Source: Victivallales bacterium
GTDB taxonomy: Bacteria > Verrucomicrobiota > Lentisphaeria > Oligosphaerales > Oligosphaeraceae
DNA length: 64,000 nt
Direction of reading: 5' to 3'
Assembly (NCBI GenBank): GCA_017548425.1
Contig: JAFZAB010000018.1
Span: forward strand, 1 to 64,000
A model generated the notes under the pieces. That model did no database searches. It saw only the letters and a list, made by a program, of their open reading frames with translations, and had not been told where the DNA came from. Of the stretch, positions 14,392-51,254 are shown one piece after another (position 1 is the first letter of the stretch; every line of letters starts with the position of its first letter). A program made the translations under genes and the position numbers.

Positions 14392-14466
14392 TCCGACATA
14401 GCTCAGTGGTAGAGCGGGTGGCTGTTAACCACTAGGTCGCAGGTTCAAGCCCTGCTGTCGGAGCCA
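14392..14466 (+). tRNA. tRNA-Asn (GTT), first copy
   Basis: This is a complete cloverleaf: acceptor TCCGACA/TGTCGGA, D-arm, anticodon stem GGTGG/CCACT with loop CTGTTAA (anticodon GTT at 14424-14426), T-loop TTCAAGC, discriminator G and encoded CCA (14464-14466). Confidence 0.96.
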
Positions 14467-14481
14467 ATTTAGATTTACCAT

Positions 14482-14556
14482 TCCGACATAGCTCAGTGGT
14501 AGAGCGGGTGGCTGTTAACCACTAGGTCGCAGGTTCAAGCCCTGCTGTCGGAGCCA
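14482..14556 (+). tRNA. tRNA-Asn (GTT), identical second copy
   Basis: This copy is identical to the first over its whole length, including the encoded CCA, and offset by exactly 90 bases. The anticodon GTT is at 14514-14516. It is probably cotranscribed with the first copy and followed by a terminator 6 bases downstream. Confidence 0.96.
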
Positions 14557-30697: not shown

Positions 30698-30722
30698 TAT
30701 TAATGATTAATCATTAATCATT
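30698..30722. repeat. ATTAATG-type heptamers carrying a glycosyltransferase stop codon
   Basis: Three heptamers of the TTAATGA/TTAATCA type. The TAA of the minus-strand glycosyltransferase (30707-30709) lies in the run, so its last residues (MIND) are encoded by repeat words. Confidence 0.8.
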
Positions 30723-32023
30723 GAATAGTACCATTCAATGAATGCGTCGGCTTGGCGGGTAAGGCTGAAGAGAGAGCCTCGCGTGGCGGCGGCGGACTTC
30801 ATGGCGGAATAGGCTTCTGACGGAAGTTTCAATATCTTAAGAGCCGATTGCGCAAGGGCTTCTGAATCGCCCGACGGGAAAAGAAAACCTGTTTGGCCGT
30901 CGATGATTTGCTCGACGAGACCGCCTGTCGCGGAGGCGACGACAGGCGTCCCGCAGGCCATGGCTTCCGTGACGGTTTTGCCGAAGGCTTCCGCTTTCGC
31001 CATGTGCAGGAAAACATTCGCACTGCGGTACAGTTGCGCCATTTTCCGTGCATCGCTGACGTAGGGGATGCCCATGGCGCGGATGCCGTCCGTTTCGGAG
31101 GTCAATTCCATGCCGACGCAGAGGAAGAAGAGATTCGGATCGAGCGCGGCGAGTCGTTTCACGCCTGCCCAAAGCGTGTCTGGATCTTTGAAATAGCTTG
31201 ATTTGGCGGCGGCGGCGAACATGACGATTTTGGCATCCAACGGCAAGCCGAGATCCTGTCGTGCAGCGGCGGAATCGCCTGGCGTGAAGACGGTTGTGTC
31301 GATGCCGTTTGGAATGAGCTTGTATTCGACGGCGTCCAGCATGGATTCTTTTGCGCGGTCGAGCAGCCATTGGGACGGAGCTGTGACATGTAGTTTCGAC
31401 GCCTTGAAGATTTTGGCTTTCTGTTGCCAGTTCCAATTTGTATTATCCTTTCTGACAGCTGGATAGACGTTTAGACGCGGGCAGTTCCCGCAACCGTTTT
31501 TCCAATGGTCGCAGTCGATGAAATACGCGCAATGGCCCGTGAGGGCCCATGTGTCGCGGAGATTAAGGACGATTGGCGCGATTTTGGCAAGTTCAGGCAG
31601 AATGCGCAGATCAAAATACCATCCATGGAGATTGTGACAATGGATGATATCCGTCTTGGGGGCAATGAGTTGTGGAAGTTGTGCGCAACCGGGGAATGTC
31701 CATTCGTCGCGACCGTTCCACCAGTCGATGAGGCGTGATGGATTGGCGAGGCGGTCGAAGCATCTGGCGAGTTTTCGCATGCCGGGCAGGGAGCCTTCAT
31801 GGGAGCGTGCGCCATCCGCAAACCATTGCCATGGAAGGCCTGTCCAATGCGCTTTGCGTGGAATTTCCACGACATCCGCATCTTTGGAATACTTGCGGCC
31901 GACGATGAGCTTGGAATCGTGTCCAAGACTGCGGAATCGGCTGAAGAGATTCCAGGCGGAGCCTTCGGCGCCGCCGCCGCGGTCTGCGGTGTTGATTTGA
32001 AGTATTTTTAGTTTATCATGCAT
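30707..32023 (-). CDS. Family 4-type glycosyltransferase
   Basis: The 438-residue protein has the GT-B layout. The N-terminal domain starts KILQINTADRGGGAEGSAWNL; the C-terminal domain has KLIPNGIDTTVFTPGD (about 233), a nucleotide-sugar strand AKIVMFAAAAKSS and the donor-binding EAFGKTVTEAMACGTPVVAS (about 340), as in GT4 enzymes that retain anomeric configuration. It probably adds a sugar to the LPS core or another surface glycan at the cytoplasmic face of the inner membrane. It is the last gene of the minus-strand cluster with GT9, gmhB and another GT4. Both its start and its stop codon fall in heptamer repeats, and no RBS is recognisable before the ATG at 32023. Confidence 0.9.
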   Translation of the reverse strand: MHDKLKILQINTADRGGGAEGSAWNLFSRFRSLGHDSKLIVGRKYSKDADVVEIPRKAHWTGLPWQWFADGARSHEGSLPGMRKLARCFDRLANPSRLIDWWNGRDEWTFPGCAQLPQLIAPKTDIIHCHNLHGWYFDLRILPELAKIAPIVLNLRDTWALTGHCAYFIDCDHWKNGCGNCPRLNVYPAVRKDNTNWNWQQKAKIFKASKLHVTAPSQWLLDRAKESMLDAVEYKLIPNGIDTTVFTPGDSAAARQDLGLPLDAKIVMFAAAAKSSYFKDPDTLWAGVKRLAALDPNLFFLCVGMELTSETDGIRAMGIPYVSDARKMAQLYRSANVFLHMAKAEAFGKTVTEAMACGTPVVASATGGLVEQIIDGQTGFLFPSGDSEALAQSALKILKLPSEAYSAMKSAAATRGSLFSLTRQADAFIEWYYSMIND

Positions 32024-32080
32024 AATGCATAATTTACTGGATTTTCTGGACTTACTGGATTTTCTGGATAAATGAAACCA
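32005..32080. repeat. Heptamer (ATAATGC) then period-9 (ACTGGATTT) repeats at a gene start
   Basis: ATAATGC-type heptamers cover the start codon at 32021-32023. Four CTGGAT-type 9-base units (32036-32073) follow. They lie between the two glycosyltransferase genes. Confidence 0.82.
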
Positions 32081-32115
32081 TAAATGTTACATTGCGGGGC
32101 TTATGGCCCATGGTA

Positions 32116-33189
32116 TTATCTGGTAGATTGGATAAGAGATTTAAGGGCGGAGAATACATCGTCTGGTGATTGTTTCATGCAGGGGTGGTTGGGTTTGGGG
32201 CAGATGACGGCGCCACAGTTGGCGCATGGCAAATCGTTGATGCGCAGAATCGTATGGCCTTTGCCATATGGATCCCACATGCCAGCGGGATCACGGGAAG
32301 AGAACAGCGCGACGCATGGTTTGCCAAGCGATGCCGCCAGATGCATGACGCCTGTGTCGTGGCCGAAATAACCGTCGCATCGCGCCATGACGGCGGCGGC
32401 GACGGAAAGTGGTCGGCCAGTGACAAGTGTGCCGCAAATGCCGTCGGCCATGAGACTTGTCGCGATTTTTTCATCGGATGCTCCTCCGAAGAAAAACGGC
32501 CAGATGTTTGTCTCCGCACAGAGATGTTTGAGAACGGCGGTGAATTGTTCTGGCGGCCATTGCTTGGCGGGCATGTTTGTACCAAGGGCGACGGCAAGAC
32601 GGAACACACCTTCGGGAGCGGATGACATGATGGCGTCCGCTTCTTTTTGCGCATTTTCGTCGTTTTGACGTGGCGGCAATGTGTATGGCGCATGATTGGG
32701 AGGCGGTAATGGAAGATTCAGGGGGGCAAGGACTTGCAATGTCGCATCCACGACATTAAGTCGCTTTTGGCTGAAATTGAAAATTTCATCTGGAGCGATG
32801 ATTCTCTTGACGCCGAAAAGCTTCAAATATAGTTTGAAGCGATTGACAAGCGCCATGGTCAACGGCGGATAGGGCGGCATGAGGACAATGCCGAGATCGA
32901 AATGGCGTTTGCGGAGTCTGAAGATGAGTCGCAGACGTGAAAATAATCGCGACAGTTTGCCACCCGTCATCGGAATTGCTTCAAATTCATCGACAAGGCC
33001 ACGGCCGCCGAGAATTTGGTCGGCGGAAACGGCACCGTGGGCGTCCCTTTCACTAAGCAGGCAGATGGAGGCTTGCGGAAAGGAAGCCTTCAGCAACTGC
33101 AAAGCAGGCATCATGACGAGACTGTCGCCGAAGCGGCAGTTTGAGATGATGAGAATTTTTTTTAGCTCTTTTAGGAGAAAAAGGGACAT
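32116..33189 (-). CDS. Family 9 glycosyltransferase (ADP-heptose:LPS heptosyltransferase-like)
   Basis: The 357-residue protein matches GT9. It has KKILIISNCRFGDSLVMMPAL at the N terminus, the RIIAPDE segment, then LAVALGTNMPAKQWPPEQF (about 195-213), VTGRPLSVAAAVMARCDGYFG, and the family motif GHDTGVMHLAASLGKPCVALF (about 273-293). The CANCGAVICPKPNHPCM cysteines near the end may bind a metal. GT9 enzymes transfer heptose to the LPS inner core at the inner membrane. The only usable start (33189) lies inside a period-9 repeat shared with the stop codon of gmhB, so its first residues (MSLFLL) are repeat-encoded. Confidence 0.9.
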   Translation of the reverse strand: MSLFLLKELKKILIISNCRFGDSLVMMPALQLLKASFPQASICLLSERDAHGAVSADQILGGRGLVDEFEAIPMTGGKLSRLFSRLRLIFRLRKRHFDLGIVLMPPYPPLTMALVNRFKLYLKLFGVKRIIAPDEIFNFSQKRLNVVDATLQVLAPLNLPLPPPNHAPYTLPPRQNDENAQKEADAIMSSAPEGVFRLAVALGTNMPAKQWPPEQFTAVLKHLCAETNIWPFFFGGASDEKIATSLMADGICGTLVTGRPLSVAAAVMARCDGYFGHDTGVMHLAASLGKPCVALFSSRDPAGMWDPYGKGHTILRINDLPCANCGAVICPKPNHPCMKQSPDDVFSALKSLIQSTR

Positions 33190-33222
33190 AAGGGACGAAA
33201 GGGACTAAAGGGACGAGGGGTG
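33178..33222. repeat. Period-9 repeat (AAAGGGACN) holding one stop and one start codon
   Basis: Five units of about 9 bases (AAGGGACAT, AAGGGACGA, AAGGGACTA and variants). The gmhB stop (33205-33207) and the GT9 start (33187-33189) both lie within the tract. Confidence 0.9.
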
Positions 33223-33756
33223 ATGGTGCTGTTTCAGAAACCATGTTGCGGCTTCGTCGAGCGTTTCGGCGACGAAATCCGCGTCAGGCAGCGGTGCTTT
33301 TTTACCGCTGGTGACTTGGATGGCGGTGATGCCGAAGTTTTTGGCGAGTTGGACATCAACTTTGCTGTCGCCGAACATGGCGGTGGTTTTCAAATCAATG
33401 TCGAAATCTTTGCAGGCGGCTTCGAGCATGCCTGTTTTCGGTTTGCGGCAGTTGCAGTTGGCGTCGGGGGCGTGGGGGCAGTAGTAAATAGCAGCTAGGC
33501 TAAGGCCTTCGGCAGCAAGGAGTTCCTTGAGGCGATCATGGACGGCGGCAAGATCATCTTCCGTGAAATAGCCGCGGCCGATACCGGACTGGTTCGTGAT
33601 GAGAATGATGCCATAGCCTGCGTCGCGAAGGCGTTTCAAGCCTGCGATGGCGCCTTTGGGAAATTCGACTCCGGCGGGATCGGAGAGGTATTCCTTATCG
33701 ACGATGAGGGTATCATCGCGATCAATGAAGATGTAATTTTTCAATTCACAATTCAT
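33205..33756 (-). CDS. gmhB: D-glycero-D-manno-heptose-1,7-bisphosphate 7-phosphatase
   Basis: This HAD-superfamily enzyme removes the 7-phosphate during ADP-heptose synthesis for LPS. The 183 residues have the nucleophile motif FIDRDDTLI near 11-19, LITNQSGIGRGYF near 52, the zinc loop CPHAPDANCNCRKPKTGML near 92-110 and MFGDSKVD near 128. The zinc loop separates GmhB/HisB-type phosphatases from other HADs. Cytoplasmic. It sits between two glycosyltransferases, which supports the heptose role. The ATG at 33756 lies in AATTATG-type heptamers with no visible RBS. Other heptose genes (gmhA, hldE, gmhD) are not in the window. Confidence 0.93.
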   Translation of the reverse strand: MNCELKNYIFIDRDDTLIVDKEYLSDPAGVEFPKGAIAGLKRLRDAGYGIILITNQSGIGRGYFTEDDLAAVHDRLKELLAAEGLSLAAIYYCPHAPDANCNCRKPKTGMLEAACKDFDIDLKTTAMFGDSKVDVQLAKNFGITAIQVTSGKKAPLPDADFVAETLDEAATWFLKQHHHPSSL

Positions 33757-33812
33757 AATTTATAATGCATAATTTACTGGACTGTCTGGATTTACTGGAT
33801 TCACTGGATTAT
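33748..33812. repeat. ATAATTT-type heptamers and period-9 ACTGGATTT repeats
   Basis: Heptamers (AATTGTG, AATTATG, CATAATG) span the gmhB start codon. Four period-9 CTGGAT units (33776-33808) follow up to the stop of the next gene. Same arrangement as at 32005-32080. Confidence 0.85.
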
Positions 33813-34954
33813 TTAGTTTGCAAAATGCTATTGTAAAGGGCGATGTGTTGTTCAAGATTGGCGGAGACGGGAAAACGCTTTTCGGGGATGATTTGGAAAT
33901 CGTCCTGCAAGGCGCGTTCCATGGCGTATGCCAAGGCATCGACATGGTTGGGCGGCACGGTAAGAACCTTTCCGGAAACAACTTCCGGAAGCGATGCGTT
34001 GTCGGTGACGATCACAGGGCGGCGCATGGCGCAGGCTTCGGCGGCGGCGAAGCCGAAGCCTTCGGACAACGATGGGACGACAACCGTGTCCGCGCAGTAA
34101 ACATAATCTGGAAGTTCTTCTGGGGGAACGGGTTCATGTAGAATGACGGCATCTTGCAGATGCAATGTTTCAACCAGTTTCTCTACTTCCTGAAATCCTT
34201 TGCGGACGGCTTTTGCACGACTGACGAGAGCCAGCAGGCGGACATTTGGATGCGTCTTGTGGATTTCCGCAAACGCCCGCAACAGCACGGGAAGGCCTTT
34301 CGAGCAGCCAGGCCGTCCAGAGAAGAAAAATGTGAAATGGTCTTGCAAGCTGAGGCTTGCGCGGCGCGCATTGCGGTCGTGGCCTTTTGGCGACCAGAAA
34401 TCGTAGTCGAGTCCATTGTAGATGACATGGACTTTGGATTGGGGGATGCCGAGCTTTAATAACGCACGGGCCGTGGAGTTTGAGACGGCGATATAGTTCT
34501 GGTAATCAAGCCAATAGACAAATCGTTCGATTTTGTCGTTGATGAAATTTGAGAGACTTCCTGCGTCGGAAACCTGCTTCCATAGGCCGACCCATACTTC
34601 GTGGACGGTCAGGACAAGCGGTATTTTTGTGATCTTGGCGACAAACCACGCGGGAAGCGTGGAGGCGAATGTCGTGGCGTGGATGATGTCCGCTGATTCC
34701 GCCAGCCGCAGGAGTTTTGAAATGGCGCGAAGGGAGAAGATGTAACGGCTTCCAAAAGAGGAAATTCGGTTGATTTCCACGCCGTTGCGAACTTCATATT
34801 CAAGCGTGCCGGGGACTTTCTGTGTGAGGATTCGCACATGGAAGCCTGCACGGACGAGGCCTTCGGCCAAGGCCGTGAAGAGGACTTCCGCCCCGCCGAG
34901 ATGGGGGTAGTAGTAGTCCAGACAGAAAAGGATGTTTTTCGTATCACTATTCAT
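33809..34954 (-). CDS. Family 4-type glycosyltransferase
   Basis: The 381-residue protein is a second GT-B enzyme: NILFCLDYYYPHLGGAEVLF at the start, VIYNGLDYDFW near 180, FFSGRPGCSKGLPVLLRAFA near 208 and the donor motif PSLSEGFGFAAAEACAMRRP near 300. It is probably the first gene of the surface-glycan operon GT4-gmhB-GT9-GT4. The ATG at 34954 is chosen because it fits the GT4 N terminus; the frame continues upstream to 35104 only by translating the period-9 repeat into a DYPDRPDY-type string, which is unlikely to be real. Confidence 0.9.
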   Translation of the reverse strand: MNSDTKNILFCLDYYYPHLGGAEVLFTALAEGLVRAGFHVRILTQKVPGTLEYEVRNGVEINRISSFGSRYIFSLRAISKLLRLAESADIIHATTFASTLPAWFVAKITKIPLVLTVHEVWVGLWKQVSDAGSLSNFINDKIERFVYWLDYQNYIAVSNSTARALLKLGIPQSKVHVIYNGLDYDFWSPKGHDRNARRASLSLQDHFTFFFSGRPGCSKGLPVLLRAFAEIHKTHPNVRLLALVSRAKAVRKGFQEVEKLVETLHLQDAVILHEPVPPEELPDYVYCADTVVVPSLSEGFGFAAAEACAMRRPVIVTDNASLPEVVSGKVLTVPPNHVDALAYAMERALQDDFQIIPEKRFPVSANLEQHIALYNSILQTK

Positions 34955-34955
34955 T

Positions 34956-35080
34956 TTCTGGATGACTGGATAATCTGGACGGTCTGGATAATCTGAACGG
35001 TCTGGATAATCTAGATAGTCTGGTATCCTAGGTGATTGTGTGAATCCAGAATATCCAGTAAATCCAGAACATCCAGAATA
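34956..35080. repeat. Inverted period-9 array (CTGGATAAT ... AATCCAGAA)
   Basis: About eight CTGGAT/CTGGAC units in one direction (34956-35028) are followed by four TCCAGAA units in the opposite direction (35043-35078). The array could form a long hairpin between pilT and the glycosyltransferase cluster. Same two-armed plan as 13645-13770. Confidence 0.85.
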
Positions 35081-35102
35081 AAAAGACGTTAGGCCATAAG
35101 CC

Positions 35103-35128
35103 ATGATAGCCGCTTGCGGCTATCATGA
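35103..35128. terminator. Perfect hairpin over the pilT stop codon
   Basis: ATGATAGCCGC and GCGGCTATCAT pair perfectly around a TT loop. The pilT stop (35123-35125) is within the stem. On the minus strand CTTATGG heptamers follow, so this is another hairpin-plus-heptamer site. Confidence 0.6.
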
Positions 35129-40654: not shown

Positions 40655-40716
40655 ACGGATGAGACATCTGTGATGAATAGAACAAAAGAAAGTTAGTGGA
40701 ACAGGAGAATGTGGAG

Positions 40717-42726
40717 ATGAAAAAGTACAAGGATTGTTATGCATCGTGGACAGAAAATTCGATCGTGATTGGTAACCAGTTCATTGAACGGCGTTTCCAA
40801 TGGTGTGCCCAAGGGCTGGTCTGCACGGCGACAGTCGATAAGGCTTCTGCAAAGGAATGGCGTAGCGAAGCATCGGTGGCAGTCACGCCGGATGTGACGT
40901 TTGATTGTGTTGTTTCGGACAACGACGGCCTTTCCGCGAAACATCTGTTGCTGACGGCGACGGAACGGCAGGGCGGTGGCGTCATCGAGACGAAGCTTGG
41001 CGTGTATCCTGAACTGCCGTTTGTGGTGCTTGAACGTCGTTGCAAAGGTCTGCATCCATCTTCGTCGCAACGAGTTGCGGAAAAAGGTGGCACGGGTAAT
41101 GAAAACGCTGTGGCGAAAGATGTCGTCGAAGTCGCCACATTGGATCGTATCGACAATGTCCCGCTGAATGTGCGCCATTTGAAATTAAAAGCTATTAAGC
41201 TCTTCGACCGCACGGATTTGAATGATTGCCTGGCTACGGAAGAGAATATCCACCTGTATCCAGGAGCCAGTTTTTCGTTGCGTGGCAACATCTTTATTTT
41301 CAATGATTATATGAACGACAAAGGTCTGCTGGTCGTGAAGGATTCGCCGACACATCTGTATCAGCTTGTTCAAGATGATGACAGTTTGCGCATCAAGGGG
41401 ACGCGCAATGCGGATATTGTCGGAGCGGGGCTTCACGGCGACATTGACGCGGACGAATGGTGTCAGCTCTACGGCACGACGGTTGGCGTTGGAGGAAATA
41501 CTGAAAATCTGCTGGCGGAATATCGAAAACTCTATGCCGCCCAATATCTTGCGCCTGAATTTAAAGAGCCGTTCATCATGTCCAACACATGGGGCGACCG
41601 CAGTCAGGATTCGCGCGTCTGCGAAGCGTTCATGCTGAAGGAAATCGAAGCGGGAGCCAAGCTGGGCGTCGATATCATCCAGATTGATGATGGCTGGCAG
41701 AAAGGCGTGACCATCAATTCCAAAGTCCGCAAAAGTGACATTTGGGAGGGCTATTATGCGGCGGATCCGAACTTCTGGACGGTCCATCCGGAGCGTTTTC
41801 CGCATGGATTGAAGCCGCTTGTCAAAAAGGCCGCCGCGCATGGCATCCGTTTCGGATTGTGGTTCGCTCCAGATTCCTCCCATGAGTTTGCGAATTGGCG
41901 GCGCGATGTCGATACCGTTTTGAATCTGCATCGCACGTATGGCATTTCCAGCTTTAAATTGGACAGCGTCAATCTGTTAAGCAAAAAAGCGGAGACAAAT
42001 TATCTGAATTTCCTAATCGCGGTTGAACGCGAATCCCATAACCGCATTGCGTTGAATCTCGACTGCACGGCGCAGAATCGCCAAGGCTATGTGATGTGGA
42101 AGCAATTCGGTACGCTCTTCGTGGAAAACCGCTATACAGATTGGTGCAACTACTTCCCGCACAACACGTTGAAGAACCTCTGGACGCTCAGCCAGTTCAT
42201 CCCGCCGCGCAAATTTCAGTTCGAATTGCTGAACAACAGCCGCAACGACGATAAATACGGCGATGATCCACTACGGCCCGCCGCATACGACATCACCTAT
42301 GAATTCGCCTCCGTCATGATCGCCAATCCATTGGTGTGGATGGAGATGTCCAATCTGACGGATAAGCAAATTACGTCATTGCAGAAACTTATATCGGTCT
42401 ATCGTAGCATTCGGAAAGATTTCTTCAATGCGGAGATTTATCCGATTGGTGAGCAGCCGGACGGTTGTTCCTACACGGGATTCCAAATTGTCACGGGCGA
42501 TAAGAGTGGTTATCTGCTTCTTTTCAAGGAAAAGGATGCCATCGGGCAATTTGTTTACAGACTCCATGCTCCGTTGTCGAAAAAGACCAAAATCACGCTG
42601 TTAGCCACGAATGCGCCTGCAAAGTCCGCTCCTAAACTTTCACTTGTAGATGATGTTATGGTGGGGCTGGCATTGTGGGAATGCAAGCGTGATCGCACGT
42701 TTGCGCTCTATCATTATGAAGGATGA
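40717..42726 (+). CDS. Cytoplasmic alpha-galactosidase-like enzyme (GH36 type)
   Basis: The 669-residue protein has no signal peptide. After an N-terminal beta-supersandwich of about 290 residues, the TIM barrel shows NTWGDRSQDSRVCEAF, VDIIQIDDGWQKG (about 320), GIRFGLWFAPDSS and ISSFKLDSVNLLS (about 413), where GH36 enzymes have the nucleophile aspartate. ENRYTDWCNYFPH follows, a motif seen in GH36-like proteins of gut anaerobes. The likely role is hydrolysis of imported alpha-galactosides, but specificity is open. The ATG at 40717 is preferred; a GTG at 40696 would add seven residues. It is 33 bases upstream of the next gene and probably cotranscribed with it. Confidence 0.85.
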   Translation: MKKYKDCYASWTENSIVIGNQFIERRFQWCAQGLVCTATVDKASAKEWRSEASVAVTPDVTFDCVVSDNDGLSAKHLLLTATERQGGGVIETKLGVYPELPFVVLERRCKGLHPSSSQRVAEKGGTGNENAVAKDVVEVATLDRIDNVPLNVRHLKLKAIKLFDRTDLNDCLATEENIHLYPGASFSLRGNIFIFNDYMNDKGLLVVKDSPTHLYQLVQDDDSLRIKGTRNADIVGAGLHGDIDADEWCQLYGTTVGVGGNTENLLAEYRKLYAAQYLAPEFKEPFIMSNTWGDRSQDSRVCEAFMLKEIEAGAKLGVDIIQIDDGWQKGVTINSKVRKSDIWEGYYAADPNFWTVHPERFPHGLKPLVKKAAAHGIRFGLWFAPDSSHEFANWRRDVDTVLNLHRTYGISSFKLDSVNLLSKKAETNYLNFLIAVERESHNRIALNLDCTAQNRQGYVMWKQFGTLFVENRYTDWCNYFPHNTLKNLWTLSQFIPPRKFQFELLNNSRNDDKYGDDPLRPAAYDITYEFASVMIANPLVWMEMSNLTDKQITSLQKLISVYRSIRKDFFNAEIYPIGEQPDGCSYTGFQIVTGDKSGYLLLFKEKDAIGQFVYRLHAPLSKKTKITLLATNAPAKSAPKLSLVDDVMVGLALWECKRDRTFALYHYEG

Positions 42727-51113: not shown

Positions 51114-51254
51114 AACGGCTTATGGCTTATGGCCTATGGCTTGTGGCTAACGGCTTAAGGCTTATGGCCTATGGCCTATGGCTTGTGGTTAATGGCCTAT
51201 GGCTTATGGCTTATGGCCTATAGCTTATGGCTTATGGCCTATAGCTTATGGATG
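51110..51254. repeat. Largest heptamer array: about 20 CTTATGG-type units
   Basis: Over 145 bases there is continuous period-7 sequence with CTTATGG, CCTATGG, CTTGTGG, CTAACGG, CTTAAGG and TTAATGG units. It fills almost the whole gap between lexA and ruvA and ends at the ruvA start codon (51111-51113). Confidence 0.93.

Follow-up and report, generated by a model that had tools for sequence, protein, structure and literature searches.

The window, a 64,000-nucleotide stretch of contig JAFZAB010000018.1, comes from a rumen bacterium of the order Victivallales (G000; 4.9 Mb in 248 contigs) and includes an operon with the gene order pilT2-pilT1-GT4b-gmhB-GT9-GT4a. This order is kept in 2 close relatives, G004 (JAFZIJ, a Victivallales MAG from water-buffalo reticulum) and G002 (RUG12186, also CACYQT), with protein identities of 80–99%. 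The gaps around gmhB and GT9 are only 15–92 bp long and are nearly filled by short repeated elements. An Rfam search of the window returned two tRNAs only; two tRNA-Asn (gtt) genes (14392–14466 and 14482–14556) lie in a 90-bp tandem duplication whose repeat matches 100%. Arrays were detected by TRF and a period-specific scan, and the features of the operon are as follows:

30699–30722, unstranded: ATTAATG/ATTAATC heptamer array containing the final codons (MIND) and TAA of GT4a (sequence, TRF, period scan)
30707–32023, minus strand: GT4a, a GT4 glycosyltransferase of 438 aa (Pfam PF00534/PF13692; the G004 and G002 orthologues align from residue 1 with 91% identity)
32018–32033, unstranded: duplicated ATGCATA (ATGCATAATGCATAAT), 2.3 copies, containing the GT4a ATG (period scan; also in G004, single copy in G002)
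32037–32068, minus strand: nonamer half-element upstream of GT4a with exactly four TCCAG cores at a 9-nt pitch (sequence; the family peaks at 4 cores)
32116–33189, minus strand: GT9, a heptosyltransferase-like protein of 357 aa (PF01075 above cut-off; TIGR02195 below cut-off)
33183–33214, minus strand: four GTCCC cores (GGGAC on the other strand) at a 9-nt pitch at the GT9/gmhB junction (sequence, relatives)
33205–33756, minus strand: gmhB-like HAD phosphatase of 183 aa (TIGR01662 above cut-off; NF006506 161 vs cut-off 178; TIGR00213 129.5 vs 149.6)
33742–33773, unstranded: AATTATG-type heptamer array containing the gmhB ATG and about 3 extra codons (period scan, relatives)
33777–33808, minus strand: four TCCAG cores at a 9-nt pitch, adjoining the GT4b stop (sequence)
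33809–34954, minus strand: GT4b glycosyltransferase, start set at ATG 34952–34954 (in orthologues, the alignment begins near residue 6 of the frame)
34966–35080, unstranded: inverted nonamer-array pair (CTGGA cores, spacer, TCCAG cores) in the pilT1/GT4b gap (TRF, pair scan)

The longest GT4b ORF (33809–35104) begins about 50 residues early and translates an in-frame 9-nt array, giving a spurious N-terminal extension; the conserved protein starts near 34954.

Units of 7 and 9 nt overlap three starts (GT4a, GT9, and gmhB) and two stops (GT4a and gmhB), as the initial annotation had proposed. When the four terminus stretches were dinucleotide-shuffled and searched for any 7–10-mer array with a score of at least 9, an array appeared in just 0.4%, 0.6%, 0.7%, and 1.0% of the shuffles. 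The GT4a stop does lie in ATTAATG heptamers and the gmhB start in AATTATG heptamers. The array at the GT4a start contains the ATG as claimed, but with 16 bp and 2.3 copies this is the weakest case. The GT9 start and the gmhB stop share one tract (AAGGGACNN, 33181–33214, with the GT9 ATG at 33187–33189 and the gmhB TAG at 33205–33207); its unit, however, is not the AAAGGGAC originally named but a 9-nt AAAGGGACN. Within this GTCCC array, a TTTA spacer and the next G yield the gmhB TAG, and a TTAT spacer and the next G yield the GT9 ATG. An array can supply a start or a stop because its units contain TAA, TAG, or ATG.

Comparison with the relatives revealed that protein ends do differ at array-overlapped termini, although by few residues only, and gave no support to the idea that the repeats are needed as gene termini: (i) relative to G004, gmhB has about 3 extra N-terminal residues (MNCELKNY vs MNKNY) and 3 extra C-terminal residues (HPSSL vs HP); (ii) the GT4a tail reads MIND in the window and ILAR in G002, and the G004 tail differs as well; (iii) the GT4a start is identical in G002, where a lone, unrepeated ATTATGCATGA is found; and (iv) the gmhB start is identical in both relatives, there beside a different array family (GTCCC). 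The same terminus without a repeat thus exists for GT4a in G002, but not for GT9 in these species. GT9 alone among the compared starts is in-array in all three: its sole usable ATG lies inside a GTCCC array, in a context (CCCTTATGTCC) that is the same in G004 and G002. In G001 and G003, the GT9 homologues have no array and begin about 6 residues ahead of the conserved core. We count the conservation of the in-array GT9 start in three species against the explanation favored below.

The gmhB stop and the GT9 start are separated by 15, 24, and 36 nt in the three species, and since a 9-nt unit equals three codons, the 2 genes share one frame in each. This common frame, together with two TAG units in the array frame of G004, would suit a phase-variable junction, in which unit changes could fuse or separate gmhB and GT9 and a variable base decides between TAG and TCG or TTG. 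We regard such a switch as highly improbable, since the stop is kept in all three species (one genome each) and the G002 gmhB stop falls outside the array.

To place these overlaps in context, genes were predicted with a home-made dicodon model (660 genes in the own genome). All statistics come from samples of three genomes, one per species: 0.90 Mb for the own genome, 1.06 Mb for G002, and 0.21 Mb for G004. The samples span roughly one-fifth of two of these genomes and a smaller share of the remaining one. Starts wholly inside an array occur in 4 of the 660 genes, three of the four in this operon; stops wholly inside an array are commoner (24/660). Start overlaps in own-genome co-directional gaps numbered 3 vs 16.2 under random placement, a depletion, and stop overlaps were at chance level (16 vs 16.3). 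The idea that the repeats are arranged for translation initiation is therefore unsupported. The starts do lack a recognisable ribosome-binding site, yet this is ordinary here: a 4-nt Shine-Dalgarno match precedes 42% of the predicted own-genome genes, and a 5-nt match precedes 19%.

Arrays near starts might nevertheless replace the Shine-Dalgarno sequence and tune initiation, for example with the pyrimidine-rich GTCCCTTTN as an S1-type leader. The GTCCCTTTN family may have such a leader role because its arrays show a strong sense bias (23:2) and lie near starts, at a median of 16 nt; in addition, Shine-Dalgarno 4-mers are less frequent at own-genome starts near arrays (26% vs 42%), and the TAACTGA heptamers of Beggiatoaceae offer a precedent. 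However, only 2 of 33 GTCCCTTTN arrays lie in divergent gaps, where leaders abound, several families are nearer the upstream stop than the start, and own-genome starts are depleted of arrays, which makes translation control quite unlikely as the general explanation.

Across 1,164 gaps of the three genomes, 181 heptamer and 133 nonamer arrays were found vs about 3 and about 2 in shuffles. Gap arrays of periods 7, 9, 10, and 8 were far above shuffles and nearly absent from coding DNA; periods 4–6 and 11–13 exhibited no such excess. The arrays thus agree with the intergenic heptamer and long simple sequence repeats (STRR, LSSR), whose tandem 5–11-nt units are over-represented in gaps, most often as heptamers; periods 7 and 9 dominate here. 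Convergent, co-directional, and divergent gaps carried arrays in 48%, 24%, and 15% of cases in the own genome and in 39%, 24%, and 9% in G002. The own-genome arrays lay at a median of 36 nt from the upstream stop and 65.5 nt from the downstream start, and the AGCTNAA family was sense-oriented (30:8) at a median of 10 nt from the upstream stop. Stop-codon supply as a purpose was rejected, as heptamer arrays close equal numbers of frames on both strands (2.23 sense vs 2.29 antisense).

The arrays are dispersed core–spacer elements, not plain microsatellites. In scans for specific cores (CTGGA, GTCCC, and others) that were designed post hoc, after inspection of the data, 29 of the 40 CTGGA-N4 arrays comprised exactly 4 cores, and the number was constant at 3 for TTCGTG (15/15) and CACAG. 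Inverted pairs within a gap had a constant order, CTGGA then TCCAG (13:0) and GGGAC then GTCCC (6:0), with spacers of about 10–70 bp; CTAG cores (octamers and TCTAGA nonamers) are self-reverse-complementary, which makes pair order meaningless, and were ignored. Cores are near invariant, and spacers vary between neighbouring units (AAGC-yn-A, mismatch 0–3% vs 28–53%). Hairpins lie 5′ of 19 of 25 GGCTTAT arrays (1.5 in shuffles) and 18 of 55 AGCTNAA arrays (3.5 in shuffles). These fixed core numbers, the constant inverted order, the invariant cores with variable spacers, and the hairpins beside two families argue against plain slippage, that is, neutral tandem duplications tolerated between genes and overlapping termini by chance. 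Slippage is consistent with the growth in place, between continuous flanks, of arrays at some orthologous gaps, with the exclusion from coding sequence, where heptamers shift the frame, and with the long GGTTAGT and GGCTTAT arrays (GGTTAGT arrays have 3–22 units, and the long ones resemble ordinary slippage), but as an account of the arrays as a whole we consider it unlikely.

Several individual arrays were recorded besides. A 135-bp GGCTTAT array of 19 units lies between two minus-strand genes of the window (51117–51251) and corresponds to 43 bp in G004 and to no array in G002. Conversely, the orthologue of window gene 40696–42726 is followed in G002 by a CCGCTAA/GGTTAGC array of 22 units (L028:13706–13861, contig C23), which measures 51 bp in G004 and is absent from the window. 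Arrays of CGTGT-type 10-mers and of CACAGA-type 9-mers were found at L050, L053, L037, and L064 (G000) and at L038 and L098 (G002); all of them have 3 cores and lie far from genes, often beside a GC block that resembles GCCTCGCCGCCG and contains GGCCGAC.

At orthologous gaps, arrays tend to be retained while their family may change. Among 85 orthologous gaps of G000 and G002, both species had arrays at 19 vs 9.8 expected from strata of gap type and length (p=5e-5), with the same family at 9 of the 19 and a different family at 10; co-occurrence between G004 and G002 was not significant (5 vs 4.7 expected). In the operon, the GT4b-gmhB gap of the window has TCCAG and AATTATG, that of G004 and of G002 has GTCCC, and the gmhB-GT9 gap has GTCCC in all three species. 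The GT9-GT4a gap has TCCAG in the window and in G004, which additionally has CTGGA cores; in G002, a degenerate GGGAC/GTCCC arrangement is visible by eye and was unscored by the scan. Gap alignments revealed in-place growth or unalignable DNA and no clear empty insertion site. The exact GTCCCTTTN, AGCTDAA, and GGTTAGT patterns were missing from nearly all of 145 scanned genomes of the phylum; the exact family patterns thus hardly occur outside this genus or family, and a wide distribution in the phylum was rejected.

REP/BIME elements are transcribed intergenic repeats that avoid promoter gaps and occur as inverted pairs of a single imperfect palindrome. The arrays share the avoidance and the pairing but differ in their core–spacer build. 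No link to REP-type transposases was established: the own genome has four Y1_Tnp matches, none of them beside these array families; an 84-bp array of a 10-nt ATCATAAAGA (L162:2391–2474) adjoins a Y1_Tnp match. No report of such arrays for Lentisphaerota was found in a literature search.

The arrays share most features with their closest precedents, which are the multi-core paired sites and H4 elements of Geobacter metallireducens and the heptamer arrays of Beggiatoaceae and Xanthomonas. G. metallireducens has paired “global regulator” sites (classes 1–3, class 1 with insertion sequences nearby) and H4 heptamer elements, for which binding by a regulator or an IHF/HU-type protein is a proposal only (PMC2700814). 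As here, 3–5 tandem units of 7–8 nt form opposite-strand pairs at variable distance, and the proBA gap of a sister species holds a different repeated sequence (PMC2700814). The pairing is matched by our inverted pairs, but CTGGA and GTCCC differ from the published units GTTGCTYN, TCTCCGTS, and MTYCTGA (PMC2700814), and 9- and 10-nt pitches and many families per genus occur here. The arrays may thus work like the Geobacter family but are not classed in it because the unit consensus differs. The TAACTGA arrays of marine Beggiatoaceae are likewise intergenic heptamers near starts, with rare Shine-Dalgarno sequences beside them and stop codons in the units; they are, however, a single family mainly upstream of starts (PMC4679880), whereas here many families lie mostly nearer stops, starts are rarely overlapped, and only GTCCCTTTN comes close to a position few nt upstream of starts. 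The GGGAATC arrays of Xanthomonas, with relatives in Nostoc, resemble ours in being intergenic, nearer the upstream gene end, and more frequent in convergent than in divergent gaps, with possible stop-codon overlap and conserved positions of varying sequence; they differ as a single G-quadruplex-forming family (PMC4692102) from the AT-rich or mixed units and the family exchange described here.

The explanation that we favor, and consider reasonably probable, is that the repeats of the operon are local copies of several dispersed intergenic core–spacer families of this Victivallales genus that overlap termini in tight gaps and are probable binding sites. Each element consists of short cores, usually 3–5, that recur every 7, 9, or 10 nt and are separated by spacer bases that vary. 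The elements occupy gaps whose flanking genes converge or run in the same direction, and they avoid divergent (promoter) gaps. In this compact operon, whose gaps they almost fill, the outer units run into the gene termini; the overlap would mostly be a side effect of packing, adding or changing few terminal residues and leaving the folded core untouched. Given the gap lengths and what is generally known of initiation (review PMC12548453), translation here probably starts independently of a Shine-Dalgarno sequence or is coupled to that of the upstream gene, as the short gmhB-GT9 distances would allow. From core conservation and geometry, we infer that DNA- or RNA-binding proteins most likely contact the elements at several points, and that the elements would work like BIMEs or the Geobacter paired sites. 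A bolder and less probable extension is that these are genus-wide binding arrays with interchangeable cores (CTGGA, GTCCC, AAGC, and others), read by a putative protein family with one core per 7–10 nt; orthologous gaps keep the array and swap the core, as if site and protein specificity turned over together.

Gene ends in such genomes can consist of repeat units, including one spurious N-terminal ORF extension. The same operon in three species provides a clean comparative case, in which arrays stay in place and change family. With a fixed core number and a constant inverted order, the proposal of a binding site can be tested directly.
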